This document shows, in pieces, positions 12,335 through 59,693 of a stretch of 64,000 bases of DNA (position 1 is the first letter of the stretch; each line of letters opens with the position of its first letter). A program made the translations under genes and the position numbers. Under the pieces are notes generated by a model. The model did not search any database. It was not told the origin of the DNA and saw nothing but the letters and a program-made list of their open reading frames with translations. This DNA is from Branchiostoma floridae (Eukaryota > Chordata > Leptocardii > Amphioxiformes > Branchiostomatidae). The stretch covers positions 21,348,888 through 21,412,887 of the forward strand of contig NC_049985.1 in the NCBI RefSeq assembly GCF_000003815.2, given 5' to 3'.

Positions 12335-12560
12335 GAAAACCCTGAAGCTGTGCGCCGGGTGCAAGCTGACCCGCTACTGCAGCCGTGACTGTCAGAAACA
12401 ACACTGGTCTGTCGGACACAAGAAGTGCTGTGGTCATGACGCGTACACTGGCGGTCGCGAGCAAGCCGACTCCTTCACACACATGGCGTATGAAAAAGTT
12501 AATTTTACTGTGCCCACCCACATCTTAGAAGATATACAACAAAACTTTATGCGCCTGTAA
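12335..12560 (+). CDS. Gene 1 (class E), last exon only: MYND finger and C-terminal tail
   Basis: The acceptor TTTTCAACAG precedes an exon in phase 2 that encodes the second half of a MYND zinc finger (C-x2-C, then R-Y-C-S-R-D-C, H-W, G-H-K-K-C-C) and a class E tail ending in QQNFMRL. Exons 1-4 are missing because of the gap at 10520-10619. In the two complete class E genes (6 and 11) they lie 2.4 kb and more upstream, beyond the LINE. The exon is identical by eye to the last exons of genes 6 and 11. The protein would bind partner proteins through its ankyrin repeats and MYND finger. A polyadenylation signal AATAAA is at 13198-13203. It belongs to the unit preceding unit 1. Confidence 0.85.
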
Positions 12561-13530
12561 CGACAAAGCACAAATCATGAAGCATTTTAGCTCTCAATGC
12601 CGCTACAGTCATATAAAATCTTGTACAAAGTAACTGAGTAGCCAAAATAGCGATTTCTCACTACGGATATGATTCTGGTGTCTTGTAGAAATGATGTAGT
12701 CCAAAAGGTCATACCATTGCTTCATGTATCTTATAGAAAGAAGCAATCATCTTGAGTCGAATTCTTAGAAAAAAATCAGCACTACACATTCACATACTCG
12801 TGTAGTGAAAGTATGAAAATAAGAAGATGCCACAGCAACTACAAAGTATTGCACGGAAATCTTCAAAAAGAGACACTTGTCAATTTTTCCTGTACAACTG
12901 TAATCACGTATTTTGGTCTTGTGGTTTTAGTAGTTTAATTTGGTTTGTCATATAGAAGAAAAGTTTAAACAAGTTACATTCGGAATGTGACAAAGCAGCC
13001 ACCCATTTTATTTCGTATCTTTTAGATCAATAATAATTAGACTGTTGCAATGTAATTGTCATGGATACGTTTCATTTTCTTCATCAATTATGCTTCGTTT
13101 TGATAAAAGTAACATTCTACTGATCAGTGTGTTAAGTGATGTGATGAGAATGTTTTAAGGTAATGAAGCGTTAAGTTATCTGCTATTATTCCAGATGAAT
13201 AAACACAACAAGAAGAAAAGTGATCATGAACAAGGCTTGTGAAGCTTCTATAGATTTGTGTATAAGTGTAAATGAATATCATGACCACAACAGGAGGTAT
13301 CAAAACCAGAAGTTCCGCTGCAGTACAGTAAAAAGCCGCTAGGACGACCATTATGACTTGACTATTGTTTTCCAAACACCCTTCCACCTACCAAATAAGG
13401 TCCATCCGAGCAAGAGACACGCAAACAGACGACGTCGAAAACATAACCATCGTGGCAAAGGCAATAAGCACAGTCCACCTATACCTTTTCAGGAGACACA
13501 CAAATTAAACTGCTAAAATAGCCACCAATC
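12561..13530 (+). other. 3' UTR and intergenic DNA of class E gene 1
   Basis: No coding exon. An AATAAA at 13198-13203 suggests a 3' UTR of about 640 nt. The segment is almost identical to 33102-34071 and 56601-57570, with only scattered single-base differences. Confidence 0.55.
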
Positions 13531-13640
13531 TAGCCTGTGTGTACAAAATCTCTCGATGGTTGAGTTTAATGACCCCCTCCCCTCGTAGGGCGGTGGCAAT
13601 TGTAGGACTGGTCGCTAGGGGCGCGATTTTAGCCAGGCTA
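13531..13640. mobile_element. Short MITE with TAGCCTG/CAGGCTA ends
   Basis: The ends TAGCCTGTG and CCAGGCTA are inverted, and inside them lie a CTCTCG piece and GCGCGATTTTAG. It is flanked by GCCACCAATC and GCCACCATTT, a probable 9-10-bp target-site duplication with mismatches. Orthologous copies are at 34072-34181 and 57571-57680. Related elements lie at 46531-46620 and near 27668, 28690, 51230 and 52253. Confidence 0.6.
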
Positions 13641-14002
13641 GCCACCATTTCGCTTCCAGAAAGAAAATCAATGCCTTTAGCACAGCGCTGTTCCGTGTTA
13701 CATCGCTAGTTCACAGATATCCGTAGGGTAACCTATATCTGTTCATTTTAAACAAGGTATTTGGTGATATAAAGCCGACGGACGGTGGTTTTAAAATTAG
13801 ATCGCATGCTATCGATCGCAAGAAATACAGAACCATACGCGAATGATAGCATAGTTACCCTGACATACTTGTGCATGCATTATAAAAACACGACTTGCGT
13901 ATGAAAATATATCAAATTCCTGGGGAACATGTACAAAGAAAAAACAGCCTATCAGTATCAATTTTCTATATCGTTGCGTTCTCATCTCAATCCAGAGTCT
14001 CA

Positions 14003-14027
14003 GTCACGTGACAATAGCTCACGTGAC
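14003..14027 (+). promoter_or_regulatory. Pair of TCACGTGA boxes upstream of gene 2
   Basis: CACGTG cores at 14005-14010 and 14020-14025 lie 15 bp apart and end 25 bp before the ATG. The first is a full GTCACGTGAC palindrome. The same boxes precede every other complete gene start of the array. Confidence 0.65.
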
Positions 14028-14050
14028 GCGTGGAATGTGGTTCTAACAAA

Positions 14051-17000
14051 ATGGCAGAAAATGCGAACAAAGCTCTGCTGTATGCTACAGAGAATGACTC
14101 ACTTGAAGGCGTTAAAGCGGCATTGGAAGCTGGTAAGTCGAACCAAGTATTTACCTATTGTAGGAAGTTTGCTTCCGATGACAATCTGTGTGTATCTGTG
14201 ATCTACGGTAGAAATAAAACCTCGTCAGTAGTATCCTGGAGTTCACAACTTTACATTAGTCATTGTCTCCTAGACTCTACCAGGCTTCGTGGATCGGTGG
14301 TCTAATTGTAGAAATTGGAAAAATAGAATCTATAGTACGCTAGGGGAGTTAGCCGGCCAGAAGAGTACGTTTCCTCACCACGAGGTGGTGAGGATAATGA
14401 TTCTACCGATCCACGGAGCCTGGTAGAGGCTAATTGTCTCCGCCGAGGCCATTTCCATACTTCTATCTCATGAAAGGCGTCGGTTTATAGGCAACATCCG
14501 CACCGACTTTATAGACCTGGACTCAATTATTTTGTTATTTTCTTGCCTCAAATCCCCCTCCCCCCTAACTGAGTGCCCCAACGCACGCGGCTGTTAGCAT
14601 CTGTACACAGTGCATGACTATGCGTATGCGGTTCTCTCCTACCGGTACCAAGTAGCATTTGCTATAGCTAATACCTACATTAATATTTATTCTAACCGCA
14701 TTGTTTTATTTCAGAAGTACGTTTTACATTTTACCGTAGCTTCAAATGTTTTCGCTCGGAGTTGGGTTTGAAAACAGGGCTTTCGAACAGGAGGAATATT
14801 GAAATGCAAATTAGAAATAGATATTTGCATACAGTACATGAGTGACACCTTTTGATCTTTTAGGTGTTATGCAGAAATATGGTCTCTAATTGACAAGGAA
14901 AGCCCAGTATGACGCTGTGGGTGACTTAGCTTATGATCACTACTTATGTTCTAGTGATTCGTGCATATTTGATGGAGTTTCTTTTGTTGATTCTCCAAAC
15001 AGAGGGCTAGGAATTTAGAATAAGTATCATAACCTCCTTGCAGGATAGAGGGTTGTTTTCGCAAGCGGGTCCACTGTGCTTGTTCCATGAGTTTACAATC
15101 ATTAGGAGTTGCATGGAAAAGGGAAGACAATCACACACGCTTTCTATCGATATACTGTAAATGCATTTAAGTTCTCGGGGATTTAATTTCGCGGTAGCGG
15201 GAAAAAGGTCTTTTCGCGGTGGACTTAAGTTCGCGGTTACACTATAGACTGCAGTCTAATGCCACAATAGAAAAATGTTCGCGGTAAAGTGGTCACCGCG
15301 AAGACCGAGAATATTAATCCACCGCGAACATTTCTGCATTTACAGTATACGTTGAAATTGATATAGAAACGGCAACGTAAGTATGGTCTACCAAATTTGA
15401 TATTCACGTGCCGAGTTTATATTGTGCTCATCAAGTAGTGACCAGTGGTGGTCGGTAATGTGATCGCCGCTTTGACTCTTTTTTTAAACTCCTTTTGCAA
15501 ATTCATATTAACGTCCTGAAATTTCACATTTGTAACTAATCCTTACTAAATCACGGATCATCAAACGCAGGTGCAGACATTGACTACGAAGAGCCGGCCA
15601 GCAATGCCACACTCATTGGCACAGCGCTGTTCATAGCTTGTGACCTGGGGCATGTGGACATTGTGAGGCTACTGCTCCGCAAGGGGGCGTCTTTGGTGAA
15701 GAGAACGTTTAGTGCGTTCACCCCCCTCCATGGCGCAGCGTTCGAAGGTAAATTAATCAAATCAAATTCCTGTAAATAAAGAGATGCCACTCGCTATAAA
15801 CTAGAAATACATACAACTCTTATTGCCGTGCAGGCTAGGACATGCAAGTGCTAGACTAAATACTAGGGCTGAAAAAACAAAACGGTGATTGAAATAATCT
15901 ATTAGATATTCTCGACGTATGGCAAGGAATACCACTAAAGAAGACCAACGTTTGCTTGATACTATACATTTTTATTCACTTAGGATTCACCGCAGAACAA
16001 GGCTCATGGAGCCACTCAAGCGTTTTGGGTTACAATACTGTATTGTGAAGAAAGATGTCTGTTAACTTTGACTTAAACAGTTTCAAATTGTACATCGGAA
16101 GCTTATTCCATAGCGATATAGTTCTAGGAAAGATGAATTTTGTTCTTGTGTCGCAAATCCAACCCAGGGCGGACAGAAATAGTGGACTTACTGGTGCAGT
16201 ATGGTGCAACAGTAGACGTACTGGACTGGTACCAGAACACACCACTCATGACCGCTTGTGTTAACAACCATGTCGACACGGTTCGGCGACTGATCGAGCT
16301 TGGTGCAAGGCCTGATTTGGACGACGGTCATATAGCACAGAGGCAAGTATCACATTCTTCAATCAGAAATATGAACGATGGTTTCTTATGTAGACGAACT
16401 GGACTCAAGTACACATGTATCTTTCAGTGTGTGTGCTTGTGTGTGTGAGAGAGTTGTGTTTGTGTGTGCGTGCGTGTTAGGTGTGTGTATGTGCGTGAGG
16501 TGTGTGTGTGTGCGCGTGTAAGGTGTGTACATGAGTGATTGTGAGGTGTGTATGAGTTTACGTGCTTATATTGAAAATATGGTATAGCGCCGTGAGCATG
16601 GTGCATGTTTTGAAATTCCCGTTGTACTTTAAATGCATATTTTGTTATCTCATGGCCTAGCTGTTCCCTAATTGAGTCACATCTTCCTCTAGCTTAAGGG
16701 TAGAAGTCGCCGAAAATCGGTGTTCTGTGGAAGAGAGTTATAACCTAATAGAGGTGGCGAAGAAGACCAAGCTGTTGAGATGCTGCAACCCTAAGTGTGG
16801 GAAACCAAGCTACAGGTAGGTCTTTCTGATGACTGTTCCATGGTTAATTTTTTCACCAGCGTTTTGTTTTCCTATCTGCAACTGGCTTTTGGGTATATGT
16901 TAGCTAAGTGGGGTGCTAATATAAGCGCGTTATATTGAGTGCGGCGCCAAGTTACGTCGTTTTCTCATTTGATTTGTTATTGATCGTCAGAGAAAGGTAT

Positions 17001-17309
17001 GTGATGGCAAGAACATACAATTCCGTGTATTTCTGTATTTCTACAGTTCTTTGTAGTCTGAAAAAGTAAATCGAAAGACTTCTTAATTCGACGCAGTTCA
17101 TGAATAGCTTGTTTGTCTTCTACAGGAAAACCCTGAAGCTGTGTGGCCGGTGCAAGCTGACCCGCTACTGCAGCCGTGACTGTCAGAAACAACACTGGTC
17201 TGTCGGACACAAGAAGTGCTGTGGGCATGACGTGTACTCTTATGAGCAAACTGACCCGTACGAAAGGATAGTTATGTCGTTGACAAAACTCGCTTTAGAA
17301 GACGAATAA
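14051..17309 (+). CDS. Gene 2 (class A): ankyrin-repeat + MYND zinc-finger protein, complete
   Basis: Five exons: 14051-14132, 15571-15747, 16168-16342, 16693-16815, 17126-17309. The total is 741 nt, giving 246 residues, and all phases agree (1, 1, 2, 2). Ankyrin repeat 1 is in exon 1 and the start of exon 2, repeat 2 at residues 44-76, repeat 3 at about 77-107 and repeat 4 at 110-138. A linker follows, then a MYND finger at 175-218 with C175/C176, C180, C192, C195, C201, C205, H214 and C218. Intron 4 splits the finger. Intron 3 starts with GC (AG|GCAAGT), a GC-AG intron. The start ATG is in exon 1 just below paired TCACGTGA boxes. Ankyrin plus MYND proteins act as protein-interaction adaptors; ANKMY2 is the closest known type, but these are shorter and their partner is unknown. 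A likely AATAAA is at 17600-17605. First gene of unit 1, divergently related to gene 7. Confidence 0.88.
14271..14432. mobile_element. 162-bp MITE in intron 1 of gene 2, 9-bp target-site duplication
   Basis: Inverted ends of 27 bp (opening TAGACTCTACCAGGCT, closing AGCCTGGTAGAGGCTA) have two mismatches. The element is flanked on both sides by ATTGTCTCC (14262-14270 and 14433-14441). The matching sites in genes 7 and 12 have only one copy of this 9-mer and no element, so the insertion happened after the unit duplication. Confidence 0.9.
15154..15346. mobile_element. MITE with ACTGTAAATGC ends in intron 1 of gene 2
   Basis: The ends ACTGTAAATGC and GCATTTACAGT are inverted, with several TTCGCGGT pieces between them in both orientations. 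The corresponding position in gene 7 (near 35315) reads straight through without it. Confidence 0.8.
16422..16560. repeat. GT-rich microsatellite in intron 3 of gene 2
   Basis: Interrupted (GT)n with GTGTGTGTGC and GTGAG pieces, on the sense strand, about 80 bp after exon 3. Equivalent tracts are present at the same place in genes 4, 6, 7, 11, 12 and 13. Confidence 0.9.
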
Positions 17310-18476: not shown

Positions 18477-19933
18477 TCATTTCGTGTCGTCGTTGACTTG
18501 AATTGAATTGAAGACCGACGTCATTATATTTTGAAAGGAGTCGGGTCGCTCGCCAGTGTACGCGTCATGCCCACAGCACTTCTTGTGTCCGACAGACCAG
18601 TGTTGTTTCTGACAGTCACGGCTGCAGTAGCGGGTCAGCTTGCACCGGCCACACAGCTTCAGGGTTCCGGTCTTCCTGTAGCAGGTACAAAAGGATGGTG
18701 TAGAGCAAAGTTTGTCACGATCCGTTTATAGACTACTAGAGTTGTATTAATCTACTTCTTCTACTTCTACATAGAAGTAATAAGTAATCTAGACCAAGTA
18801 CTACTTTCTTTGTATTGATAACAATTAAACATGCGGCAGGTGGATGGCAAAGGGCTGTAAAAATACTGGTGTAGACATCACACAATAGAAGCCAGTTAAT
18901 TGCGCACCGGATAATCGCACACTTCTGTTAATTGCACGAAATTCCCAAATCCTGTGGTAGTGCGGTCCAGCTTAATGACTTCTCTTTGTTGCATCATTCG
19001 GATAATTGTACGAAATACAGTGGCAAGTGGGGTGTGCAATTAACTGGCTTCTATTGTAATAACAAATCTCACCTATATCCTGGTTTGCCACATTTTGGGT
19101 TGCAGCATCTCAACAGCTTGGTCTTCCTTGCCTCTTCTACTATCCTCAAACTCTCTTCTTCACAATCATGTAGGCTTCCGGTCTCTCTCAGGTCAGGGTT
19201 TGCTCCAAGTTTAAGTAGTAGCCGAACTGTGTCCACATGGTCGAAGATACATGCATGAACGAGCGGTGTGTCCTGCCTGTTGTCCCGTATGTCTAATGTT
19301 GCTCCATGTTGCACCAGCAATTCCACCACTTCTGTCTCTCCTGAGTTGGATTTGCGATACAAGAAGTACATGTTAGCATGACAAAAAATGTTTACCTCGC
19401 AAAGTACTGGGTAAAGTAAAAACGAATTGACAAATGTACTTTTTGTGCCCAAGGAAATCTGATAAACGGCTTTTAAAGTTTTCTCACCGCAAAAGGCTAC
19501 ACATAGGGGTAATAAGCAGAACTGTTGTTGGAAGCTCTGACGAAGGCGTCTGAGAGACATCGCATCGAAACGTAAACAATGTAAGTACCTGCTCGTTGTG
19601 TAAAAATAATTCTCCTATATTCTACCAACCTGATGTTTTGGGGGCCTTAAAAGTTGTTCAGTTCCCTTGTATCACGGGTCTGTAGTTTCTTTTTTCCGCT
19701 GTCGTCTTTTCTTAGTACTCAATTCATCGACAAAAAATCGTTTTGAATCCACTCACCGTAGAACGCTGCTGCATGAAGAGGAGACTGCGACATTGCGGCT
19801 CTCTTCGCCACGAACGCCCCCTCGCGGAGCAGCAGTTTCACCATGTCGACATGTCCCTTGGAACAGGCGATGAACAATGCTGAGCCAGTGCTTGCCTTGT
19901 CGCCGTATCGTAGATCGTAGTCAATGTCTGCAC
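18477..19933 (-). pseudogene. Gene 3 (class B, minus strand): ankyrin + MYND gene lacking exon 1
   Basis: Exons on the minus strand: exon 2 19933-19757 (177 nt), fused exon 3/4 19340-19073 (268 nt) and last exon 18675-18477 (199 nt, ending TGA). Phases agree (1, 2) and no frame is broken. In the plus-strand classes, ankyrin repeat 4 and the first MYND cysteines are on separate exons; here they share one exon, so intron 3 has been lost in class B. Exon 1 and the promoter, present in the paralogue gene 8, are missing: 17 bp upstream of exon 2 the sequence switches to the middle of a plus-strand class C exon 2 (gene 4). Without a start codon or promoter it is probably non-functional, unless a new first exon is used. 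Confidence 0.78.
18883..19056. mobile_element. Pogo/Tigger-like MITE in the last intron of gene 3
   Basis: The inverted ends AATAGAAGCCAGTTAATTGC and GCAATTAACTGGCTTCTATT match each other. A second member with CAGT-type ends and TA flanks is at 62770-62944. The equivalent intron of gene 8 (39499-39745) lacks it. Confidence 0.75.
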
Positions 19934-20296
19934 CTGCGTTTGGTGACCTACAAGGGGCATGTTGACATCGTGAAGCTGCTGCTCCGCAAGGGGGCGTCTG
20001 TGTCGAAGAGAACCAGAAGTTCATTTGCTCCTCTTCATGGAGCAGCGACCGAAGGTACTATACTACTAGTAGTATGTTGATTCAAAACAAATGCTTGTCT
20101 GTATATCGACGGCAACGTTACATCTTGTTTTCTAGTGTCGTAACACACAATCATAAGATACTGTATGTACAGAAATTGCAAAGTATATTGAGAACTAAAG
20201 CCTTTACTATAAAAGTGCTAAACGTAACTGAAAGCGTTCTATGAACAAAGGTTCATTAGGTAAAAGAAATCACATTATCTATCAGATGTCGGCGCT

Positions 20297-20575
20297 GTGT
20301 TGTGTCTGTTCGTGTTACTTTACATACTCACTCACCGCCAAAACCTAGCTTCGATTCCCGGCGTAGAAACCACTAAAACACTGCGGGAGAGTAGAAACAG
20401 TCTCCTGGCTCCCGGGATCCGACTCCAGGCCGGCCAGTTCACAACCCAACACCATCACCACTGCACCCAAAGGTCCGGACTGTTTTGGCGCAGTGCCGAT
20501 GGTTTGGATAAGCTGGCGGGCCCGGGTTCGATTCTCGGGGGTTGGAGACTGTTTCTACTCACCCCTATCGTTTCA
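20297..20575 (+). mobile_element. tRNA-derived SINE-like element in intron 2 of gene 4
   Basis: Two RNA polymerase III B-box-like motifs (CTTCGATTCCC near 20348 and GGTTCGATTCTC near 20526) occur, the second preceded by an A-box-like TGGCGCAGTGCCG. A near-identical copy is in intron 2 of gene 9 (43832-44109), so it inserted before the unit duplication. Confidence 0.55.
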
Positions 20576-20945
20576 GATATTCACGTGAACATTTGATGTC
20601 ACACGTTTTCTTGAAAGTCGAGATGTATTTCCCGTTTCTCTTAACTAGGAAAGACAGAAGTGGTGGACTTGCTGGTGCAGCATGGTGCAACATTAGACAT
20701 ACGGGACGGCTTCCAGAACACTCCGCTCATGAGAGCCTGTAACTACAACCATGTCGACACAGTTCGGCGGCTGATTGAGCTGGGAGCAAGACCTGATTTA
20801 ACTGGTGGTCAGTTACAGGGCATGAGGTAAGCTTTGCATTCTTTGAGAACATACATTTAGCACGGACGATCGTTTGAGATTTCTTATGAAGACAAACTTT
20901 CAAATAAAGTCGGATTGAGTTGCTTGGCTATGCTCTTTCTGTTTT

Positions 20946-21055
20946 CAGTAAGTGAGTGTGTGTGTGATTGTGTGTGTCTGTGTGTGCGTCTGTTTGATTG
21001 TGTGTGTGTGTGTCCGAATGTGCGTGTGTGTGTGTTTGTGCATGTGTGGTGCATG
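20946..21055. repeat. GT-rich microsatellite in intron 3 of gene 4
   Basis: Interrupted (GT)n at the same position relative to exon 3 as in the other array genes; nearly identical to 58964-59071. Confidence 0.9.
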
Positions 21056-21964
21056 TTTTATACTGCACCGATCCACAGACAAGAACCTAAATGTCATGAA
21101 ACCATGCCTTATTTGAAATGTTCTTGGCCTAGTTCCCTAAACGAGTGAAATCTTCCACTAGGTACTACAAGCCGGGGACAGAAATCGGAAAAGGTGAAAA
21201 TGAGGAGAGTTTGAAGCTGGTAGAAGAGGCGAGGAAGTCCAAGCTGTTGAGATGCTGCAACCCTACGTGTGGCAAACCAGGATACAGGTAGGTTTTGCTA
21301 ATGATGTTTTCACCGTTGAAATACTTTTCCATCCTATTGTATGTATAAATGTTTTTATAAACGCAAACAGTGGGTAATAGGATATTTTCTTCTAAATTCA
21401 TACAAGTCTACGAAACTAAATTGAAAAACTTTTCTGAACTAGTACTGTGCACAGTCACTGAATAGCTTTTGTACCTTTCTCACATTCTACAGGTCAACTG
21501 GAACCCTGAAGCTGTGTGCCGGGTGCAAGCTGACCCGCTACTGCGTGTGTATCCGTAATTGTGATTACGCTTCCTAGAAACGTCGTCAGATTAGTTATTT
21601 TCTGACTTATACATGGGCAAATGACGTTTATAGTATACTGTACCCACTTGCCTGGACTCTATTTGTTTTGCTTTTCTTGTCTCAAATCTCACCCCAGCAC
21701 ACTATCCATCGGAACAATGAATGATTTAGATTTTCTAACATCTGTGCAGATTTATGCACAGTACAGTACGTGTTTTTGTCCAAGTATTTACAGTTGCGTT
21801 AACTTTAGTCATCTAGTGGTTCAAATCCCGTTTTCAAATCTAACTCTGAGAGAAAACGTTTATTACAAGCAAGGTCCTTGCTACAAGTCGATATTTTCTG
21901 CTGTAAACCGAAAACGTAAACAACGCGTGTAATGGAAAACAACACGTACTACATTGTGTTTGAA

Positions 21965-22844: not shown

Positions 22845-25791
22845 GTGCAGACGTTGACTTTGAGCACCCTGACAACTTTGCCCCGAGCATGGGCAATGGC
22901 ACGGCATTGATCATTGCCTCCATGCTGGGGGACGTGGATATAGTGAGACTGCTGCTCCGCAAGGGGGCGTCTGTTATGAAGAGAATGGTGGGTGGCTTAA
23001 CTCCGCTTCATGCAGCCGCGTTCAAAGGTAAGCTGATCTAAAGAAATGTCACTAGTCTAGAACTCGACCAACGCATGTCCATAACTCATAATATCAAACC
23101 TTTCTAGGTTCCAGTGCAGTAACATATCAACTACATGTAGTCGCCAGGGGTCTTAAAATCTAACCACTTCAATGTTTTTTTAGTTGTTCACATTCACGTA
23201 ACGGACATTCTCAATTATAATGGTTTTGGGCATGTATGGATAAACCCGAGGTTATATCATGTTGATATGCTAACCGACCAATTACGACTCCGTTTACATG
23301 ATATATACAAGAATGGCATTCTTCTATCCAGAATAACTCAAAACTTTCCAGTTATTCTACGTTAAAGGAAAGATACGGACAAAAGAAGTATCTCTCGAAT
23401 GTACACAGTTTTTAACTTCGTAGAGCAATTACAAAGATCTGTAGTTACAAACTAAACATAGAAGCCGGAAGATATACTAAAAATCCGCGTGACCAGAGGT
23501 TTTGTCCATTCTGCCCAAACGGGATCGAAGATGAACGACACTTTGTTATGGATTGTTCTCGATATAATGATAAACGCACAGAGCTGTTCACATTACTTTC
23601 CGCTTGCTATAAAAAATTTGCTACTCTCTGTTCGATAGATAAACTCAACTACATTCTGGGAGGCGATAATCCTCATTGTGTACAAATAGGCAAATATATC
23701 CACGAATGACCGTAGAACCAATAGTGTAAATGACATGCTAGACCCTATTTGTTGATGTATCCATACCTATAGATATCCACATATGTGTGTTTAGTTGTAC
23801 TGTAAGTAGTTTTTTTTTATACATGTAACGTTAGACCTTACGAAAGTCGCTGTACTTTTGACGTGTCAAGAAAGATTATATTATATAAACACACGGACAC
23901 ATGCTACCGAAAACAATTTACTTTCTTGGTATGTCAGAATTCTGAGTCGTATAGCAAGGACATGAAAACACGATACAATGTATTTATTTACACGTCGTGT
24001 TTACATTGAATATTACTTCGTAGAAGGTAACGTTACACTTTTTTGTGTTGCAAATCCAACCCAGGGCAGACAGAAGTGGTGGAAGTGTTGGTGCAGCATG
24101 GTGCAACATTAGACATACGGGACGGCTTCCAGGACACCCCACTCATTCTGGCATGTCACAGCAAACATGTCGAAACAGTTCGGCGACTGATTGAGCTCGG
24201 AGCAAGACCTGATTTGACCGACGGTGGTACAGGCAGGAAGTAAGTGTCACATCCTTCCATCTAGCCTGGTTACCAAACCCCAGCCCGATCTCAAGTATCT
24301 ATCGTGCAGGGGTCTGGCCGGATGGGATAGGAACTCTTCTCAATTTTGCACCTTATAGTGGGCAAAAAACTCCACCAATAGAACAACACAGGATCAGCAG
24401 GAGGTAATTACACCCCTGCCATGATTGGTTAAAGACCCCCAACTGTACTTTTTGAATCCATAACGTAGCTGATTCGCTACTGTGATAGCCTGCTGACCAA
24501 CTGTGGTGTGTTGTAGCTGGCTACCTGTGGTGAGAGTGGTCATCAATCCTAGGTTCTCCTCCCACTGATCAACGGGCCTTCGAGAACCTTTCTACAGCCA
24601 TGTTGCCAGACCCCATCACGAAAGATATATCTTGAGGTTGGGGTATGGAATCCAGGCTACCTTCCATCAGGAGATAGATATTGAACGTGATCTCCAAGCA
24701 GCTCCTACGGTAGCATAAGATAGTATCAAAAGCTGCCAGAGGAGTGAAGCTGACATAGGAGTGTGTTTGGCTATTCGGAGGCTGATGACTCCCTTTGGCA
24801 TGGCCAGCTGTACTCCTTATACCCCTGTCACATTATCCACGATCTTCGGGCGCATCGATGAAAGATCGGCCATATTTAAGATCGACAGAGGGTTGCGCAT
24901 ATTTTTTGCACCTGACAACCGTCCCTGTCACATATAAACCATACTTTGTACTTTGTACAATTGTTGTGCAATTAAGTTATAATTATAAGCGAGGCTCGGG
25001 CGAATACCGCAGAATCGTCATCCGATCGATTTTCACCTTTTATTATATGTGTGCATCCACTGCATTGTGCACGTTTTATTCTTTGCCGCGATCCGCAAGC
25101 AAGAATCCTGATGTCATGAAAATGTATATCGATGGGAACGTTACAGACCATGCATGTACATGTTTGTTGTGTATTTGATATATGTATCTTATCTGGTGGC
25201 CTTGTTCCCTAAATGAGTCATATCTTCTCATAGCTTGGGGATAGCAGCCGGAAACCCGACCAGTGACGAGAGTATCAAGCTGATGCAAGAGGCTATAGAG
25301 TCCAAGCTGTTGAGATGCTGCAACCCTAAGTGTGGCAAACCAGGCTACAGGTAGGCTTTGCTGGTGATAGCTTGACTGTTTTCCGAGATAAATGCTTTAT
25401 TTTCACTTTCTAAGAAGACAGTGGTTACCATACTAGTACTTTGTCATCCATCCTATGTACAGACATTGTCTTATTTTTGCGTGCAAAGATCAGTTGAAAA
25501 GTTTCTGATACATTGTTCCTGAATAGCTGATGTGCGTGATATGTTTTCTACAGGAAGAACCTGAAGCGGTGTTCTCAGTGCAAGCTGACCCGCTACTGCA
25601 GCCGTGACTGTCAGATACAACACTGGACTGTCGGACACAAGAAGTGCTGTGGGCAAGATACGTACACTGAAGATCGTGCTTCAAAAATGCTTTGGTCGTT
25701 GGTAAACAACATCCACCAAAAACCCGTTGAAAATGTGGTTAGGTCAATGATAAACCTCTTCGACGAATATTTGGAAGCGAATAAATGTTGA
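22845..25791 (+). pseudogene. Gene 5 (class D): ankyrin + MYND gene lacking exon 1
   Basis: Exons 22845-23027, 24065-24239, 25234-25350 and 25554-25791 encode ankyrin repeats 2-4 and the whole MYND finger, ending with the class D tail (last residues DEYLEANKC). All phases agree (1, 2, 2) and all reading frames are open. The exon 1 and promoter expected by comparison with gene 10 were deleted: the sequence upstream is the 3' part of a class D intron 1 joined directly to the broken last exon of gene 4. Intron 2 contains the 3' end of a LINE (23190-23709). The gene could be expressed only by using an upstream first exon. Exon 1 of gene 2 ends in the matching phase 1 on the same strand, so a read-through transcript could in principle supply it. 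I treat it as a probable pseudogene with intact exons. Confidence 0.8.
23190..23709 (+). mobile_element. LINE 3' end with CCHC-type knuckle (relic)
   Basis: From about 23460 an open frame reads through a C-x2-C-x11-H-x5-C knuckle (FCPFCPNGIEDERHFVMDC) to a stop at 23707-23709. This is the C-terminal region of many invertebrate LINE polyproteins, downstream of the reverse transcriptase. The region from 23190 contains frame-broken upstream sequence. It lies in intron 2 of gene 5. A related fragment is on the minus strand at 27117-27432. Confidence 0.65.
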
Positions 25792-41831: not shown

Positions 41832-42265
41832 TTTGTAAGAAACGCTGCACATATGTTGTCGCACCTTGCTCGTGTGCTGTCTGAGTTTGAACTGAAGAAG
41901 CATGAGAAAAAGTTGTCTGGTCACGTGAGCTATCGTCTTGTCACGTGAGCTGTTGTCTCGTGGATAGAATGAGAACGCAAAAGATGATGAGTTGTTTTTT
42001 CTTTCTTTAGCATATTTGTGCAGTAATTGATAAAATCAAGACTTGAAAATATCTCTCGCTAATATAAAACGCTCTTCTGAAAAATCTGTAAAAATAAAAA
42101 CTCAATATTCATTTTCTAAACTTTTTCGTTCTCATGTTACCCATACGCCAACAGCTCACGTGACCAAAAATTAGCTCACGTGACAAGACGACTTCTACCC
42201 ATGATTCTTCACTTCAAACTCAGATAGCACGAGCGGAAGGTGTCGACAACAGCGGTTCTAACAAA
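41832..42265. promoter_or_regulatory. Bidirectional promoter of genes 8 and 9 with four TCACGTGA-type boxes
   Basis: CACGTG cores at 41922-41927 and 41942-41947 (20 bp apart) serve the gene 8 side, the nearest lying about 90 bp from its ATG. Cores at 42157-42162 and 42177-42182 (20 bp apart) serve gene 9, the nearest ending 83 bp from its ATG. Both sides also carry the conserved CTTCAGTTCAAACTCAGA(C/T)AG segment in mirror orientation, so each half is a complete copy of the class promoter. Confidence 0.7.
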
Positions 42266-44214: not shown

Positions 44215-44314
44215 NNNNNNNNNNNNNNNNNNNNNNNNNNNNNNNNNNNNNNNNNNNNNNNNNNNNNNNNNNNNNNNNNNNNNNNNNNNNNNNNNNNNNN
44301 NNNNNNNNNNNNNN
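44215..44314. other. Assembly gap (100 N)
   Basis: Separates class C intron 2 (gene 9) from the class D promoter (gene 10). By comparison with genes 4 and 12, class C exons 3-5 and 3' flank, at least 1-2 kb, belong here. Confidence 0.98.
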
Positions 44315-47800: not shown

Positions 47801-48345
47801 TGGTTGGAGAGTATATAAAAATCATATAATATCATTTTTTTACCAAATCATGTATCAACACTGCCACAGGTGCAGACGTTGACTTCGAGCACCCTGACCC
47901 TGATGTCCCAAGCATGGGCAATGGCACAGCATTGTACATTGCCTGCATTCTGGGGGACGTGGACATAGTGAGACTGCTGCTCCGCAAGGGGGCGTCCATT
48001 ATGACTAGAACGGTGGGTGGCTTAACTCCCCTTCATGCAGCCGCGTTCAAAGGTAAGTTGTTTTAAAAGAAATGTTTCTCCGTAGGGATAAAAAGAAGAA
48101 GAACAACTAAAGATAGAAGAGACTTTTTATTTCGAAATGATCGAGATGCTGTAATTCACACCTCTTGAATCATGGCAATCCAAAAATGAATCTACAACAC
48201 CGGTACCCGTATTAAATAAAGGTGAGCTATGATAGGTCTATATATGCTAGGCTGTGCAATTTGTAGACTACAAACTTGGACTGTGAAAACGAAATTGCAA
48301 ATAGGGTTCAACAAGTTCACAACCACACATCCGCACGTACACACA

Positions 48346-48384
<39 letters not shown>

Positions 48385-49742
48385 GCGCGCGCGCTAGCCA
48401 AGCAACGTGTCCTTCTTGGTGAAGGGGATGATTAATGACGGTTTGTCAGACTTTCACGTCGTATGGCAAGGACGTGAAAACACATTATTTATTACATGTT
48501 ATTGTGCTGACATTGCACATTTAATACTTCGTAGAGCTAGAACGCAACGAACGCACATTTCTTGTGTTGCAAACAAAACCCAGGGCAGACAGAAGTGGTG
48601 GACTTACTGGTGCAGCATGGTGCAACAATAGACATACGGGACGGCTTCCAGGACACACCGCTCATTTTGGCATGTAACAACAAACACGTGGACACAGTTC
48701 GGCGACTGATTGAGCTCGGAGCAAGGCCCGATTTGATCGACGGTGGTATAGGCAGGAAGTAAGTGTCACATTCTTTCATCAGAATATATATATTGAACGT
48801 GATCTCCAAGCAAAAGATAGTATCAAAAGCTGCCAGAGGAGTGAAGCCGGCCTAGGAGTGTTTTTGGCTCACAGTGGTTGGTGACTCTTTGGCCAGCTAT
48901 ACTCACTCCTTAGCCAGCTTTGATACTATCTTATGCCACTGCTTAATCTGCCTGGAGATAGACTGACTTTCAAATCTGAGCTGATTCGTTGGCTTCAGTC
49001 GTTTTATGATATGTGTGCATTGTGCATGTTTTATTCGTCTTCGCCATCGGAATGCAAGGATCCTGATGTCATAAAATCGTGTATCTCTTGAAACATTATA
49101 GACCACGCATATATTTGATAAATATATATGTATCATATGTGGCCTGGTCCCCTAAATTAGTCACATCTTCCCCTAGCTTGGGGATAGCAGTCGGAAACCC
49201 GACCAGTGACGAGAGTATCAAGCTGATACAAGAGGCAATGGAGACCAAGCTGTTGAGATGCTGCAACCCTAAGTGTGGCAAACCAGGCTACAGGTAGGTT
49301 TTTCTGTTGATGGCTTTGCCGTTTTCATGCGTAAATGCTTTATTTTTACTTTGTCTGAGAAGACAACCATGATATTTTGTCATCCGTCCTATGTACAGAC
49401 ATTGGTTCCATCTAAATTCTTATTCTTGGCCGACAGATCAGTTGAAAAGATTCTGAATGATACAAAGTTCCTGAATAGCTTGTGACGTGTTATGTCGTCT
49501 ACAGGAAAACTCTGAAGCGGTGTTCCCAGTGCAAGCTGACCCGCTACTGCAGCCGTGACTGTCAGATACAACACTGGTTTGCCGGACATAAGAAGTGCTG
49601 TGGACAAGATACGTACACTGATGATCCTGTTGTAAAAGCGCTTTGGTCATTGGTGAATCACCTCGACGAAAAACCCGTTGAATACATGGTTAGGTCATTG
49701 GTAAAACTGATCGACGAGTATTTAGATGCGAAGAAGTGTTGA
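44886..49742 (+). CDS. Gene 10 (class D): ankyrin-repeat + MYND zinc-finger protein, complete
   Basis: Five exons: 44886-44976, 47870-48052, 48584-48758, 49177-49293, 49505-49742. The total is 804 nt, 267 residues, phases 1, 1, 2, 2. Four ankyrin repeats; repeat 2 has LGDVDIVRLLL in place of the LGHVDIVRLLL of class A. The MYND finger uses RCSQCKLTRYC and IQHWFAGHKKCC, and the class D tail has a long helix-like end (residues DEYLDAKKC). Intron 1 (2.9 kb) is expanded by MITEs and a T-rich hairpin element; intron 2 has a CA/CG tract. It is the intact partner of gene 5, which lacks exon 1. Confidence 0.88.
46531..46620. mobile_element. TAGCCTG/CAGGCTA MITE in intron 1 of gene 10
   Basis: Opens TAGCCTGACTAAAATCGCGC and closes ACACAGGCTA; contains the family's GCGAGAGATT piece. 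Same family as 13531-13640. Confidence 0.65.
46978..47020. repeat. Hairpin with ATGCCGGGAATAT arms
   Basis: Thirteen-bp perfect arms flank a 17-nt loop, and beyond them weaker pairing continues (GATTTTCA near 46952 with TGAAAATC near 47044). A related ATATGGGCC hairpin lies near 42615-42735. Confidence 0.7.
47106..47813. mobile_element. T-rich composite element with CTCTCCAAGCAGAGGTT end
   Basis: Opens TACTCTCCAAGCAGAGGTTGG and closes GGTTGGAGAGTA. It contains a 260-bp T-rich low-complexity run (47157-47420) and an internal hairpin (about 47535-47650) like the element at 39030-39168. The open frames of phenylalanine-rich protein are composition artefacts. The boundaries are approximate and nesting is likely. 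Confidence 0.55.
48339..48392. repeat. (CA)n/(CG)n microsatellite in intron 2 of gene 10
   Basis: About 20 CA dinucleotides followed by six CG dinucleotides; a Z-DNA-prone tract like that at 10014-10107. Confidence 0.93.
48795..48965. mobile_element. Hairpin MITE with AAGATAGTATCAAAAGCTG arms in intron 3 of gene 10
   Basis: AAGATAGTATCAAAAGCTG near 48815 pairs with AGCTTTGATACTATCTTATG near 48918. The outer end opens with ATCTCCAAGCA. A relative sits in intron 3 of gene 5 (24690-24815). Confidence 0.7.
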
Positions 49743-50335: not shown

Positions 50336-50336
<1 letters not shown>

Positions 50337-51720: not shown

Positions 51721-54700
51721 ATGGAGGAAATGGCAAATGAGCTTCTGTTGTATGCTGCTGAGAATGGATCACTTGAAGGCGTTAAAGCGGCTTTGAAAGC
51801 AGGTAAGCACATGTTGCATGCAATTATTTCCTAAAGCAACATAAACTTGTGAGGTACAATCAGGCATCGAACAAAATAAAATTTGATATGAATTTTGATT
51901 CCGAATGGCAAAGATACTTGGTGGAATCATGCGTTACGTAGTCAGTTTCTCCACCAAGGTTATATCCACGCTCCCCAGGGCATAATATAGTTTAATAAAA
52001 GAGATTTAAAAAAAACTCAATGGTTTATATATAGAATTTTCAGCTTTGAATCTTCTTCGACGCAGACAAACAGAACTTTTCATAGGCTAGCATTTGTGCA
52101 CACACAGTGCGCGAATAGTTACCCAGTATTCCGTTAATTCCTTTTAGTACTGTTATTCTATTCTACACGTGTTATTATCCTGTTTATCTTTTTACAACAG
52201 ATATAGAAATACAGTTTTTGATCCGAGTTGAATTTGAAAAGAAGGAATATAGCCTGACTAAAATCGCGCTCCTAGTGGGGGGTCATCAACCCAAGCCAGC
52301 GAGAGATTGTGTAAACACCGACTACAAGGGATAGGACCCGTATACCATTCAAATGTAAATTTGTTGTCTTGGAATTGTACACAAGTATGGAATGAATTGA
52401 GCTTTTCAGTGGTACTAGTAACTGTTATACAGACGATTTGCAAACGAGCTCGGGCTGAAAAGAATAGTCTAAAATGACTGTTCTGCCCCACTTTATCCTT
52501 TGTTATATCGTATGGCGGCATCGCAGCATTTCTACAAACACAAGTTCATGTATACGTAGTCGTTTGCTATTGGGGTAGGTACTCTTTAGAAATACATGAA
52601 TGAGACCTTAAAGTCTTGATTGTGTGGCGAAGGTATGGGTTCATGGAACTCTAGTTTGATATGTGATTACTTTTTGAAACTGGAGTTTTTTACTTTCTTG
52701 AAAAATCTTATCAAAGACTGTGCAACCATAAAATCATAATCACCAAACACATGTAGGTGCGGACATTGACTGCGACCAGCCGGACGACAGCGATATAATA
52801 AGGAGTGGCACACCATTGTATCATGCGTCTTTCAATGGACATGTAGACATCGTGAAACTGCTGCTCCACAAGGGGGCGTCTGTGGCGAAGAGGACCAGGT
52901 TCTCGTTTGCTCCCCTCCATTCAGCAGCGACGGAGGTAGGTCAATTCATTCATTTATTCAATAACCGTAACCAAGAAGGTCATATTTTAATGTTATTTGT
53001 CTGCCATTTGGTATTATTTGTCTGTCGTGATATGATATTTGCTATACGTACGCGTAGCTTCAGGGATGATTTACATACTTAGATACTTATTGTGCAAATC
53101 ATGATCAGGTTCAAATCTTTGAGAAAAAGCATAAATCACTCGAAAAGGTTAACACTCTTTGGTGAAAGTATGAAGTCGTGGAACTCTAGTTCAAAACAAA
53201 TGCAAATACATGTACCGTCTATTTCATTGTGTATTACTTCGAGGAAGGATTACACATATGGTTGATGAGTATTTCTTGTGTCACAAAACCAACACAGGAC
53301 GGACAGAAGTGGTGGACTTGCTGGTGCAGCATGGTGCAACGTTGGACATACGGGACGCCTGGCAGTATACACCGCTGATGTGCGCCTCTATGTACAAACA
53401 CGTCGACACAGTTCGGCGGCTGATAGAGTTAGGGGCAAGGGCGGATCTGACTGACGGCCCCGGTCGTTCTCTGGTAGCTCAGAGGTAAGTGCCCCGAGAA
53501 TGTATACTGACTTTCAATTACTTGTTGAACTTGTGCTTCTTTCAATGTTTGTCTGTGTGCGTGCGTGCACGAACTAACGAGAACGTGCGCGTAACGGTGT
53601 GTGTGTGTGTGTGTATTGTACTCTGACTTGCATGTTCATGTCATTTGCATATCCGTGACTGGACAGATGCGGCCCCACCATTCTAATTCCAGTGACTGTC
53701 ATGATCATCAGTCATGATATAAAATAATGTATGACTATGACTAAAAGCTTTTTTTCTGTCAAGACCGAATATCCCACAGGAAAACAGACATATACGCATA
53801 TTGCATACATGAATATTGTAATGAAATTGATGTTAATATCTCTCGTCATTGTTACCAAGACTAATTATATATTTTCCACTAGGTACTGCGAGTTGGGGAT
53901 GGAAATTGGAAGACATGGAAGTGAAGAGTGTTTGAAGCTCTTAGAAGACGCAAGGAAGTCCAAACTGCTGAGATGCTGTAACCCTAAGTGTGGCAAGCAA
54001 GGCTACAGGTAAATAGATTTACAGTTTTAAAGTGCATTTTCACGCTTTGACGTTACCTCCAGAATTCATTCTGCGATTGTGATGCTATTTGGTACATGGG
54101 TTGATGTTGTTGTGCTGACGGTTAGGTTTCATTCTGGGCACTGCAACTGGACCCTTCGTTTCTATGTTTTTGGCTCTGGGCATAATGCGGTGTGATAGGT
54201 GGATTAACGTGTAAAGAACAAGTAATCTAGGTTAGGCCCCATAGCAGCTTGCTCAGGGACTGCAGGGGCATTTTTGTTAAACTATTTCAAGGCATGTAGG
54301 GGAAGAAAGTAATTGCGGAATTTATGTTATTTGGAATGCAGGTGGCTTAAATAGATATGTACACGAATTAAATGTACATTGTGTGTTGGATGTCCATCGT
54401 CACTTCGATGATGACTTCAATGGCGTCTCTGGTGCGACCGAAGGCCGAGGCGCATATGCGTCCGCATGTCGGGCACACGACAGCGGTGCTGGGGATGGGT
54501 CTTCCCTCCTTCTCTTTCTCCTTCCTGTCTTGTCGTTTCTTCTGTATTTCATTTAGTCTGTTGTTTTCAAAGTTTTGTACTCCCTGATGGACATCATGAC
54601 GCCATGCGCATCTGTCCATTGCAGTAGTCTCCCATTCCCGGTGTGGAATGCTGCATGCGGGGAGGAACGACTTCAGTGAGTCCTTGTAGCGCTTGTAAGG

Positions 54701-56600
54701 ACGTCCGACTTTTCTCGTGCCGGAAGCAAGCTCACAGTAGAACACTGTCTTCGGGAGTCGTGCTTCGTCCATGCGCACCACATGGCCAGCCCATCTCAGC
54801 TGAGCTTTCATGATGAGCGCTTCAATGCCCATCATGTTTGCTCGACGGAGCACTTCTGTGTTGGGAACCTTGTCTGTCCAGGAGATACCCATAATTCTGC
54901 GCAGGCAGCGGAGGTGAAATCTGTCCAGAGCTTTCAGCTGCTTTTTGTACAGTGTCCAGGTTTCACAGCTGTAGAGTAGCGCTGTGATAACAACTGCTTT
55001 GTAGACTGCCAGCTTTGTCTGAAGTCTGATGCCACGTTCACCCCACAGCCGCTTCCAGAGCCTACCAAAGGAGGAGCCGGCTTTCGCAATCCTGTTGGAC
55101 ACTTCCTTGTCTGTACTGCAGGATGAGGTCAGTGTACTTCCCAGGTAGGTAAAGCTCTCTACACTGTTTAGCTCTGTTCCTTCTATCATGATGTGAGGAG
55201 CTGCTAGTGACACTCCTGGCGCAGGTTGAAGCATCACTTCTGTCTTCTTCAGGCTAATTGTTAGCCCGAAGGCTTTACTGGCTGTTGACAGGCAGTTAGC
55301 GAGCTCTTGCAGATCCGGTTCGCTGAGAGCAGCAAGGGCGCAGTCATCTGCAAAGAGAAAGTCTCTCACCAGGGCCTCCAGCACCTTGGTTTTTGCTTTG
55401 AGACGCCGTAGATCAAAGACCCGCCCATCGCATCTGTAGCGGATGGTTATCCCGGCATCTGTCGCAGAGAGTGCCTTGAACAGCATGGTGGCAAACATGA
55501 GGCTGAGAAGAGTGGGTGCCATAACACAGCCCTGTTTTACTCCATTCGTGATAGGGAATGAGTCAGATACTGTGCCGTTTCCCACAGCACGGGCCATCAT
55601 CCCATCGTGGAATGACCTGATGATGCTGACAAACTTTGGGGGACAGCCCAGTTTGGACAGGATTGACCACAGGCCCTCTCGGCTGACTGTGTCGACTGAC
55701 TGTGTCGAAGTCCACAAACATGATGTACAGGTTTTAATTTTGTTCGCGACACTTTTCCTGGATTTGGCGAAGTGTAAATACCATGTCTATGGTTCCTCTG
55801 TTACTTCTGAAGCCGCACTGGCTTTCTGACACCACGTCGTCCAGCAGGTGCTGTGTGATGCGATTGAGGACAATGCGGGCCATGACTTTTCCAGCAGCAT
55901 TCAGCAGCGAGATTCCCCTATGGTTATCGCATGCTGCTCTGTCTTCCTTGTGCTTGTAAAGATGAATGATGTTGGCGTCCTTAAAGTCCTGCGGCACCGA
56001 TCCCTCCTTCCAGAACATTTGCATCAGTTCTGTCAGTTTGGCTGTGGCTTAAATAGATTATGTACACGAATTGAATGTACATTATACATGTGTATAAATT
56101 GATGTTAAATCAGATGGGGTATATGATGATAAGGACATAATCTTCCTAAGAAACTGTTGGTTGATTCGGCTTCCTAGGCCGAGCACGGGTCAGGTTCGGC
56201 TACCCAGCGGGCTTGGGCTATGTCATTCACCAAGAGGGGTGTGTCTGGTTGTGTTTCTGGATATTTGGCGCCAGCAAAATCCTTTTGGATAGATTGTGAT
56301 TATAAAGAATGAAAATCCGGTATGAAATTAACATATTCACCAAATAGCATGTTTACCTGTTTCATTTTCAACAGGAAAACCCTGAAGCTGTGCGCCGGGT
56401 GCAAGCTGACCCGCTACTGCAGCCGTGACTGTCAGAAACAACACTGGTCTGTCGGACACAAGAAGTGCTGTGGTCATGACGCGTACACTGGCGGTCGCGA
56501 GCAAGCCGACTCCTTCACACACATGGCGTATGAAAAAGTTAATTTTACTGTGCCCACCCACATCTTAGAAGATATACAACAAAACTTTATGCGCCTGTAA
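51721..56600 (+). CDS. Gene 11 (class E): ankyrin-repeat + MYND zinc-finger protein, complete
   Basis: Five exons: 51721-51802, 52757-52939, 53298-53484, 53883-54008, 56375-56600. The total is 804 nt, 267 residues, with the same exon lengths as gene 6, and all phases agree. Four ankyrin repeats, a MYND finger split by intron 4, and the class E tail ending QQNFMRL. A notable change is His for Arg in repeat 2 (LLLHKGASV; all other copies have LLLRKGAS or LLLREGA), from a single C-to-A-type change in an otherwise invariant 20-mer. Intron 4 carries LINE copy 3. AATAAA at 57238-57243. Confidence 0.88.
54381..56043 (-). mobile_element. Non-LTR retrotransposon (LINE), copy 3, 5'-truncated, in intron 4 of gene 11
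   Basis: Same element, boundaries and target-site duplication (54342-54380, 56044-56083) as copy 2. It shares with copy 2 the in-frame stop (+ strand 55734-55736) and the 12-nt deletion in the palm motif. It adds its own 12-13-nt duplication of GACTGTGTCG next to that deletion and lacks the 9-nt KLG duplication of copy 2. Reverse-transcriptase catalytic block [11 protein letters not shown] intact; the gene as a whole is dead. Confidence 0.93.
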
Positions 56601-58042: not shown

Positions 58043-58067
58043 GTCACGTGACAATAGCTCACGTGAC
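58043..58067 (+). promoter_or_regulatory. Pair of TCACGTGA boxes upstream of gene 12
   Basis: CACGTG cores at 58045-58050 and 58060-58065, 15 bp apart as in genes 2 and 7. Confidence 0.65.
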
Positions 58068-58664
58068 GCGTGGAATGTGGTTCTAACAAAATGGCAGAAC
58101 ATGCGAATAAAGATCTGCTGTATGCTACAGAGAATGGCTCACTTGAAGGCGTTAAAGCGGCATTAGAAGCTGGTAAGTCGAACCAAGTATTTAACTATTG
58201 TAGGAATTTTGCTTCCGATTACAGCTTGTGTGTATCTATGATCTACGGTAGAAATAAAACCTCTTGAATGGTATCCTTCACAACTTTAAATTAGTCGTTG
58301 TCTCCGCCGAGGCCATTTTCATACTTCCAGGAAAGGCGTCAGTTTATGGGCAACATCCACTCCGACTTTATAGACCTGGACCAAAAATGTTACTGTATTT
58401 TCTTAACTGTACTCAATTATTTGGTTATTTCTTGCCTTAAATCCCCCTCCCCCCTAACTGAGTGCCCCAACGCACGCGGCTGTTAGCATCTGTATACAGT
58501 ACGTGGCAATGCGTATTCGGTTCTCTCCTACCAACTAGCATTTTCCAATACATACATTCTAACAGTATTGTTTTATTTCAGAAGTACGGTTTACATTTTC
58601 AGTACACCGTAGGAATGCTTGAAATGTTTTCGCTCAGAGTTGGGTTTGAAAACAGAGCTTTCGA

Positions 58665-58764
58665 NNNNNNNNNNNNNNNNNNNNNNNNNNNNNNNNNNNN
58701 NNNNNNNNNNNNNNNNNNNNNNNNNNNNNNNNNNNNNNNNNNNNNNNNNNNNNNNNNNNNNNNN
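58665..58764. other. Assembly gap (100 N)
   Basis: Sequence jumps from class A intron 1 to class C exon 3. If unit 3 has the A-B-C order of units 1 and 2, about 8-9 kb would be missing here. Confidence 0.98.
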
Positions 58765-58963
58765 CGACACAGTTCGGCGGCTGATTGAGCTCGGAGCAAG
58801 ACCTGATTTACTGGTGGTCAGTTACAGGGCATGAGGTAAGCTTTGCATTCTTTGAGAACATACATTTAGCACGGACGATCGTTTGAGATTTCTTATGAAG
58901 ACAAACTTTCAAATAAAGTCGGATTGAGTTGCTTGGCTATGCTTTTTCTGTTTTCAGTAAGTG

Positions 58964-59071
58964 AGTGTGTGTGTGATTGTGTGTGTCTGTGTGTGCGTCT
59001 GTTTGATTGTGTAATTGTGTGTGTGTGTGTCCGAATGTGCGTGTGTGTGTGTTTGTGCATGTGTGGTGCAT
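58964..59071. repeat. GT-rich microsatellite in intron 3 of gene 12
   Basis: Nearly identical to the tract in gene 4 (20946-21055), with one extra ATTGTGT-type piece. Confidence 0.9.
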
Positions 59072-59693
59072 GTTTTATACTGCACCGATCCACAGACAAG
59101 AACCTAAATGTCATGAAACCATGCCTTATTTGAAATGTTCTTGGCCTAGTTCCCTAAACGAGTGAAATCTTCCACTAGGTACTACAAGCCGGGGACAGAA
59201 ATCGGAAAAGGTGAAAATGAGGAGAGTTTGAAGCTGGTAGAAGAGGCGAGGAAGTCCAAGCTGTTGAGATGCTGCAACCCTACGTGTGGCAAACCAGGAT
59301 ACAGGTAGGTTTTGCTAATGATGTTTTCACCGTTGAAATACTTTTCCATCCTATCGTATGTATAAATGTTTTTATAAACGCAAACAGTGGTTACTAGGAT
59401 ATTTTCTTCTAAATCCATACAAGTCTACGAAACTAAATTGACAAACTTTTCTGAACTAGTACTGTGCACAGTCACTGAATAGCTTTTGTACCTTTCTCAC
59501 ATTCTACAGGTCAACTGGAACCCTGAAGCTGTGTGGCCGGTGCAAGCTGACCCGCTACTGCAGCCGTGACTGTCAGAAACAACACTGGTCTGTCGGACAC
59601 AAGAAGTGCTGTGGGCATGACGCGTACAATCACGATGAAGCTGATCCCCTCCAACAACGGATGGCTGATAAAAGCCATATGAAGCATAGTTGA

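Follow-up and report, generated by a model that had tools for sequence, protein, structure and literature searches.

Animals possess ankyrin-MYND proteins of the ANKMY2/ANKMY1 type, which are encoded by single-copy genes in vertebrates. The genes described here, located in a window of 64,000 nucleotides of the Branchiostoma floridae genome (i.e., the whole stretch that was analysed, NC_049985.1, positions 21,348,888 to 21,412,887), resemble these in combining ankyrin repeats with a MYND finger within a single protein, but differ in that the protein measures ~250 aa, the MYND finger is situated near the C-terminus and the genes form tandem arrays. The array genes have five exons (four in class B) and encode approximately four ankyrin repeats followed by a C-terminal MYND finger, in the manner of intracellular adaptors. 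Specifically, the 246 aa protein of the complete gene A2 matched Pfam PF00023 in three stretches (86.4 bits vs. a cut-off of 21.1) and zf-MYND (PF01753; 31.6 bits vs. a curated cut-off of 22.7), the Pfam scan yielding no domains beyond Ank types and MYND. A full-text literature search returned no title naming such a family, and the available part of PMC3499355 holds no description of one. We think it fairly probable, judging from sequence comparisons, that these genes constitute a tandem ankyrin-MYND adaptor family that is co-regulated and has one shared output and class-specific targets, and of which a block was duplicated and partly mis-scaffolded.

Fourteen gene pieces were counted in the window, six of which have every exon from start to stop (A1, A2, B2, D2, E1, and E2), although the completeness of E1 and E2 requires a shifted exon 2 donor (29292–29474 and 52757–52939), in frame and 4 nt from the site in E17, the class E gene of a second cluster at 17 Mb. 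Intron 3 is missing from class B and has a GC donor in all four class A models (14051–17309, 34592–37224, and two more). In a maximum-likelihood tree of exons 2 and 3 from 22 genes, classes A, B, D, E, and F each formed a clade at 100 ultrafast bootstrap (UFBoot), class C having a single member with both exons; in an exon 3 tree of 26 genes, UFBoot support was 100 for E, A, and B, 99 for F, and 93 for D, with class C not resolved. The gene classes are older than the repeat units. An earlier note on this stretch had distinguished such classes and suggested a tree of the exons, in which A, B, D, E, and F indeed cluster across units, ruling out simple one-gene tandem duplication. The class A start codons that it had placed at 14051, 34592, and 58091 and the class E last-exon acceptors at 12335, 32876, and 56375 proved exact, with splice sites and open frames, as did the distance of 1491 bp from E stop to A start in three of three cases (1566 bp at 17 Mb); the gene models likewise confirmed that one gene, B, always lies on the opposite strand. 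Self-comparison of the window revealed similarity far above chance, with blocks of 3.6–6 kb at 96.7–98.8% (i.e., 10620–14270 vs. 31162–34806 and 54657–58305 at 98.4% and 98.8%, and 29206–35165 vs. 52677–58664 at 96.7%), while the remaining self-matches of at least 500 bp were at 78–89%, apart from two short matches (96.5% and 97.7%).

The window is interrupted by three 100-N gaps (starting at 10520, 44215, and 58665) that separate contigs c0, c1 (10620–44214), c2 (44315–58664), and c3 (from 58765), and the array extends past the window, where contig c4 is found. Contig c1 is 99.2–99.9% identical to c4 (35352–44206 vs. 69160–80711), and c3 is 99.4% identical to c4 (58765–63185 vs. 80951–85371). 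All 301 bases compared at the tail of c2 equal A2, ending at 35165, and the c4 head picks up the match at 35352. Moreover, C1 (20630 to 20755) and the second cluster (R17, 17.04–17.10 Mb; 20591 to 20466) gaplessly bridge the c1 tail to the c3 head, with ~76 missing bases predicted, so that this tail and head would be parts of one C gene (42266–43602 and 58765–59693). Together, the homologies at the contig ends point to c1–c3 and c2–c4 as the true joins, with c2 interleaved. On this basis, contig 44315–58664, with D2, E2, and A3 exon 1, is confidently predicted to be misplaced inside a C gene through a scaffold-order error, and A3 exon 1 to belong with the exons at 69342–73664. The order supported after C is a partial C′ and then class F, not D.

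The repeated block is E(+)-A(+)-B(–)-C(+), followed by C′ and F where the sequence continues. The earlier note had proposed a cassette A-B-C-D-E, but this order occurs on one continuous contig once, with broken B1, C1, and D1, and its second instance crosses gaps; the C-D-E order of "unit 2" is contradicted by the contig homology, which rules out an exact five-gene repeat. Of the two periods in that note, 20,541 bp stands, lying inside the single contig 10620–44214, but 23,499 bp does not, since it crosses the gap 44215–44314 of nominal size and is not a measured length. What holds is that a paralogue set with one inverted gene was copied as a block, albeit one that runs C-C′-F instead of C-D-E. 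In unit 1, C and D are adjacent only via junction 21544, which cuts the MYND exon of C1, leaving C1 without most of that exon, in addition to its lack of exon 1 and half of exon 2. At a further unit 1 junction (19946/19947), 2.8 kb are missing; the corresponding part of unit 2 comprises the first exons of B and C, the B/C promoter, and half of C exon 2. A search of unit 1 found no exon 1 for either B1 or D1. Both junctions may be real deletions or contig errors. Broken copies in the array include B1, C1, D1, and C′. With one contig sitting inside a gene, the order in which this assembly presents the genes of such clusters should not be taken at face value.

Block copying itself is real, since the A, B, D, E, and F clades span units and the E(+)-A(+)-B(–)-C(+) block recurs, inverted, 4.3 Mb away at C7:17.06–17.08 Mb. 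The cluster around it (C7:17.04–17.09 Mb) preserves the order and relative orientation of E, A, B, and C, at 77–98% DNA identity. The idea that R17 is simply the other haplotype of the window was considered and rejected: the R17 genes are only 77–98% identical to those of the window, and the 8 kb upstream of E17 have no match of at least 300 bp in the window region (the next 10 kb being scanned for exons only). R17 would be either a paralogous or a misplaced block. Genome-wide, at least 116 zf-MYND matches were obtained (150 of 156 candidates scored; matches not each checked for ankyrin exons), and among those listed C7 holds 50 (15.47–21.65 Mb), with a further 26 on two small contigs, C199 (23) and C198 (3). 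Of C199 and of a cluster at 15.5 Mb, 40 kb and 20 kb, respectively, were read.

The copies holding A2-B2-C2 and A3/4-B4-C4 are 99.2–99.9% identical over A-B-C and 2–37% apart outside, where the highest divergences may include misalignment. On the D-E side (c1 vs. c2) they differ by 2–27% per 500 bp before dropping to 0–0.4%, and on the F side (c3 vs. c4) by 5–37%. Within the common tract, differences amount to 0.39% of 8556 sites between c1 and c4 and to 0.15% of 3995 between the copies u2 and u3; u1 and u2 stay within 1.4% over 3.5 kb and are then 8–20% apart. A 2.6-kb insertion with terminal inverted repeats occupies intron 3 of A4 (70246–72875, past the window's end) and is absent from A2 (at 36436/36437); its presence in c4 and not in c1 marks the copies as distinct molecules. 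That one sequence was simply assembled twice from the same reads might be suggested by the 0.15–0.39% difference in the tract, but this insertion and the flanks, 2–37% apart per 500 bp, make such a pure artefact very improbable.

A serious possibility, falling somewhat short of even, is that the near-identical copies (c1+c3 vs. c2+c4) are two uncollapsed haplotypes of one locus, in which case the array would be real and have fewer units. Indeed, c1+c3 parallels c2+c4 gene by gene from E to C′, and the published assembly (19 chromosomes, contig L50 of 52 kb) was, in the available excerpt, built from Sanger shotgun reads with ARACHNE, its haplotypes being assembled apart and merged by HaploMerger2 before HiRise scaffolding, with no mention of long reads (PMC7269912). 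Bacterial artificial chromosomes (BACs) of another amphioxus cluster likewise revealed that the first assembly was fragmented and contained inversions and swaps between alleles, according to part of PMC2632668. Yet the tract divergence of 0.15–0.39% is far below the heterozygosity of 3.2–4.2% given in the accessible text of PMC12500494, divergence outside the tract is mostly far above it, and D1 and D2 differ at a dS of 0.21. This divergence argument is not decisive, since VCBP haplotypes demonstrate how strongly alleles in amphioxus can diverge. Plain alleles would not fit, nor would an old tandem pair, leaving recent exchange between units or strongly divergent haplotypes as candidate explanations.

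Most promoters of the family carry paired CACGTG sites. Of 22 promoters, 20 have CACGTG no farther than 400 bp from the ATG, and 19 have two copies spaced 15 or 20 bp (for genes beyond the window, some of the start codons were assigned by eye). Across three clusters, 51 of 58 occurrences of TCACGTGA preceded a family ATG, out of 27 considered, by at most 250 bp (32/37, 8/10, and 11/11, respectively), as did all 26 occurrences of AGCTCACGTGAC. The 58 occurrences of TCACGTGA compare with a Markov mean of 3.4 (maximum 8), and the 28 pairs at exactly 15 or 20 bp with none in 50 Markov shuffles. The 20.5 kb left flank contained no TCACGTGA, but five CACGTG. In a fourth cluster (15.48–15.50 Mb), such pairs precede two of three ATGs. 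Genes B and C stand head to head across 434 bp (448 bp at 17 Mb), and C199 contains two head-to-head gene pairs ~300 bp apart. We take the CACGTG pairs to be a target of basic helix-loop-helix leucine zipper (bHLH-ZIP) factors of the MITF/TFE, USF, or MYC/MAX type, and most genes of the family would be under one such factor via these paired sites.

Contact positions in the ankyrin repeats were defined as those randomised in DARPins and were matched after the tests to PMC3602593, the available part of which names residues 46, 48, 56, 57, 78, 79, 81, and 89. Selection tests used one representative per class, leaving out near-identical members as well as V3 in exon 2 (length difference) and U0 (exon 2 absent from the stretch read); of the five contact positions in the first repeat of exon 2, two were used, since the length of the loop varies. 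In exon 3 (16 genes), the proportions of nonsynonymous (pN) and synonymous (pS) differences were 0.452 and 0.215 at contact positions vs. 0.109 and 0.323 elsewhere, and 23 of 100,000 random site sets had a pN as high (32 with another seed; 15 for the window cluster alone and 65 for the other clusters alone). In exon 2 (15 genes), contact pN and pS were 0.556 and 0.472 vs. 0.141 and 0.407 elsewhere, with none of 100,000 random sets as high (1 for the window cluster alone and 0 for the others). A codon model of 14 genes yielded an omega of 2.26 for 12 contact codons vs. 0.296 for the 77 others. Each class would bind its own target via the concave face of its ankyrin repeats, which would have been driven apart between classes.

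The MYND finger, in turn, is nearly constant. The Gln and Trp of its peptide groove are invariant in 34 of 34 MYND cores, and in DEAF-1 the corresponding Gln529 and Trp533 grip a proline-rich ligand (PMC3555993, as excerpted). Counting ligands in exon 5 (exon 4 ligands falling outside the count), all seven Cys/His columns are kept in 33 of 34 full-length ungapped cores, the remaining one having a stop at one Cys. This near-invariant finger would recruit a common partner through a proline-rich (PxLxP-like) peptide. The block itself would have spread by segmental duplication and unequal exchange, leaving near-identical tracts beside strongly diverged ones.

Several points weigh against this explanation. 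No pair at 15 or 20 bp was present in the D2, Cq, and U3 promoters (3 of 22), and since B and C have a common promoter and copies within a class are near-identical, the 22 promoters are not independent cases. The last-exon acceptor reads GG in B4 and AA in C17 at the homologous site, and these copies may therefore be impaired. The position of DEAF-1 T516 and ETO S673 (located by counting back 13 from the Gln), where a Thr or Ser helps corepressor binding according to part of PMC3555993, holds Gly in 23, Ala in 9, and Ser in 2 of 34 cores; with Gly or Ala in 32 of 34, the fingers match the DEAF-1/ETO corepressor mode only in part. Silent divergence of the MYND core is a third of that of exon 3 (pS 0.125 vs. 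0.367, 45 pairs), which may reflect constraint rather than exchange. As to the contact codons, the idea arose from viewing exon 3 sequences, so that the exon 3 test was not blind, and the codon test is small (12 codons, 14 genes). Some positions outside the contact set are equally variable (0 and 27 in exon 3, 33 in exon 2), lower constraint at contact residues is expected anyway, and recombination among paralogues can raise omega. Finally, when the window cluster is taken alone, exon 2 has a contact pN (0.503) below its contact pS (0.543), i.e., a pN/pS of 0.93.

This last ratio also fits the possible, if rather doubtful, alternative that contact variation stems from relaxed constraint in redundant copies instead of diversifying selection, as do the presence of the broken copies B1, C1, D1, and C′ and the dN/dS of 0.84 of the broken C1. 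Against relaxation, contact pN was 1.2–1.5 times whole-exon pS in six of six sets tested, and an omega of 1 was worse by ~4.6 log-likelihood units (lnL –498.53 vs. –493.97 at 2.5, with kappa 2 in both). Moreover, within-class dN/dS was 0.10–0.45 where dS exceeded 0.05, C1 being the exception; for A2 vs. A3/4 and A17 the ratio was 0.63, based on 2 and 5 silent changes, while B2 and B4 are separated by 2 replacement and 0 silent changes. Under diversification of the binding face, which we favour, there would be a large intracellular adaptor set varying largely where engineers randomise DARPins, with a simple promoter code predicting co-expression of the family. New here are the CACGTG-pair promoters, the omega contrast between contact codons and framework, and the invariant MYND groove Gln and Trp.

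The gene models and other features in and around the window are collected in Table 1.

Table 1. Gene models, gaps, and insertions of the array in window coordinates.
Feature	Position	Strand	Details
100-N assembly gap	10520..10619		First base of contig c1 is 10620, within the reverse-transcriptase insertion in intron 4 of E0
E0, only exon 5 of class E (MYND and tail)	12335..12560	+	Gene model
A1, complete	14051..17309	+	Exons 14051-14132, 15571-15747, 16168-16342, 16693-16815, 17126-17309; GC donor in intron 3
B1, exons 2, 3+4 fused, 5	18477..19933	-	Exon 1 and promoter absent at junction 19946/19947
C1, broken	19947..21577	+	Half of exon 2, exons 3-4, MYND exon cut at 21544
D1, exons 2-5	22845..25791	+	
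E1	28154..33101	+	Exons 28154-28235, 29292-29474, 29835-30021, 30383-30508, 32876-33101
Reverse-transcriptase (RVT_1) remnant	30873..32549	-	In E1 intron 4
A2, complete	34592..37224	+	Exons 34592-34673, 35534-35710, 36120-36294, 36699-36821, 37041-37224
B2, complete	39306..41831	-	Exons 41741-41831, 40469-40645, 39746-40013, 39306-39498; no intron 3
Head-to-head promoter of B2(-)/C2(+), 434 bp	41832..42265		Four CACGTG, two per side, 20-bp spacing
C2 5′ half, exons 1-2	42266..43602	+	Gene resumes at 58765
100-N gap between c1 and c2	44215..44314		Adjacency contradicted
D2, complete	44886..49742	+	Exons 44886-44976, 47870-48052, 48584-48758, 49177-49293, 49505-49742; on interleaved contig c2
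E2	51721..56600	+	Exons 51721-51802, 52757-52939, 53298-53484, 53883-54008, 56375-56600; on c2
A3 exon 1	58091..58172	+	End of c2; exons 2-5 predicted beyond the window, 69342-73664
100-N gap between c2 and c3	58665..58764		Adjacency contradicted
C2 3′ half	58765..59693	+	Part of exon 3, exon 4 (59179-59304), exon 5 (59510-59693)
C′, partial copy, exons 4-5 only	60964..61402	+	
Class F	65542-69059		Beyond the window; follows C′

The reverse-transcriptase insertion of E1 was also present in intron 4 of E0 (10620–12008) and E2 (54368–56048), while intron 4 of E17 measures ~0.7 kb and lacks it; its distribution may therefore date the spread of the window's version of E. No exons 1–4 of E0 were found in the 20.5 kb scanned upstream, and the last 300 bases of contig c0 had no match elsewhere in the two regions searched. 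Positions 1–9174 of the window consist of nested transposons, of which 116–4204 and 5116–7390 match many places, mostly at 87–97%, and include an open reading frame (ORF) resembling a GDSL lipase (3140–3799, below the Pfam cut-off). A 1.8-kb element with inverted self-similarity (7385–9174) occurs near full length at five other places (98–99%) and partly at two more. Two satellite-like tandem arrays, with units of ~220 and ~84 bp, flank the part of the array that was read (–3884 to –102 and 92885 to 94258, respectively). Rfam yielded no match to known structured RNAs in the window at gathering score. On C199 (360 kb), the stretch read (C199:220001–260000) is dense in the ankyrin-MYND family and includes one MYND core with a stop; a gap there is flanked by two near-duplicate genes (stretch positions 18007 and 20783), perhaps another unmerged haplotype.

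The promoter arrangement can be compared with the CLEAR elements through which TFEB and MITF act on promoters. Like these, the family has tandem CACGTG near the start codon, and class A carries the full GTCACGTGAC; unlike them, most family sites read CTCACGTGAC. The MYND finger shares its groove Gln and Trp with those of DEAF-1, ETO, and BS69, but differs from DEAF-1 and ETO in that the Thr/Ser position is mostly Gly or Ala and in that Pfam sees only Ank types and MYND in A2.

More speculatively, and in our estimation unlikely as it stands, the family could serve amphioxus cells as a germline recognition repertoire, with dozens of tandem ankyrin-MYND genes, one promoter code, a selected binding face per class, a constant MYND output, and diversity through block duplication and exchange. 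Such a repertoire would resemble the arrays of plant NLRs or of VCBPs, except that its binder would be a natural protein of the DARPin type. The amphioxus VCBP cluster is similar in its copy-number and haplotype complexity and its misassembly (PMC2632668, in part), although VCBPs combine V-type Ig and chitin-binding domains, an unrelated fold. As in DARPin libraries, many variable residues fall at the DARPin-randomised positions (PMC3602593, in the part available), a few other positions being equally variable; unlike DARPins, this is a natural genomic family in which the ankyrin repeats are joined to a MYND finger.

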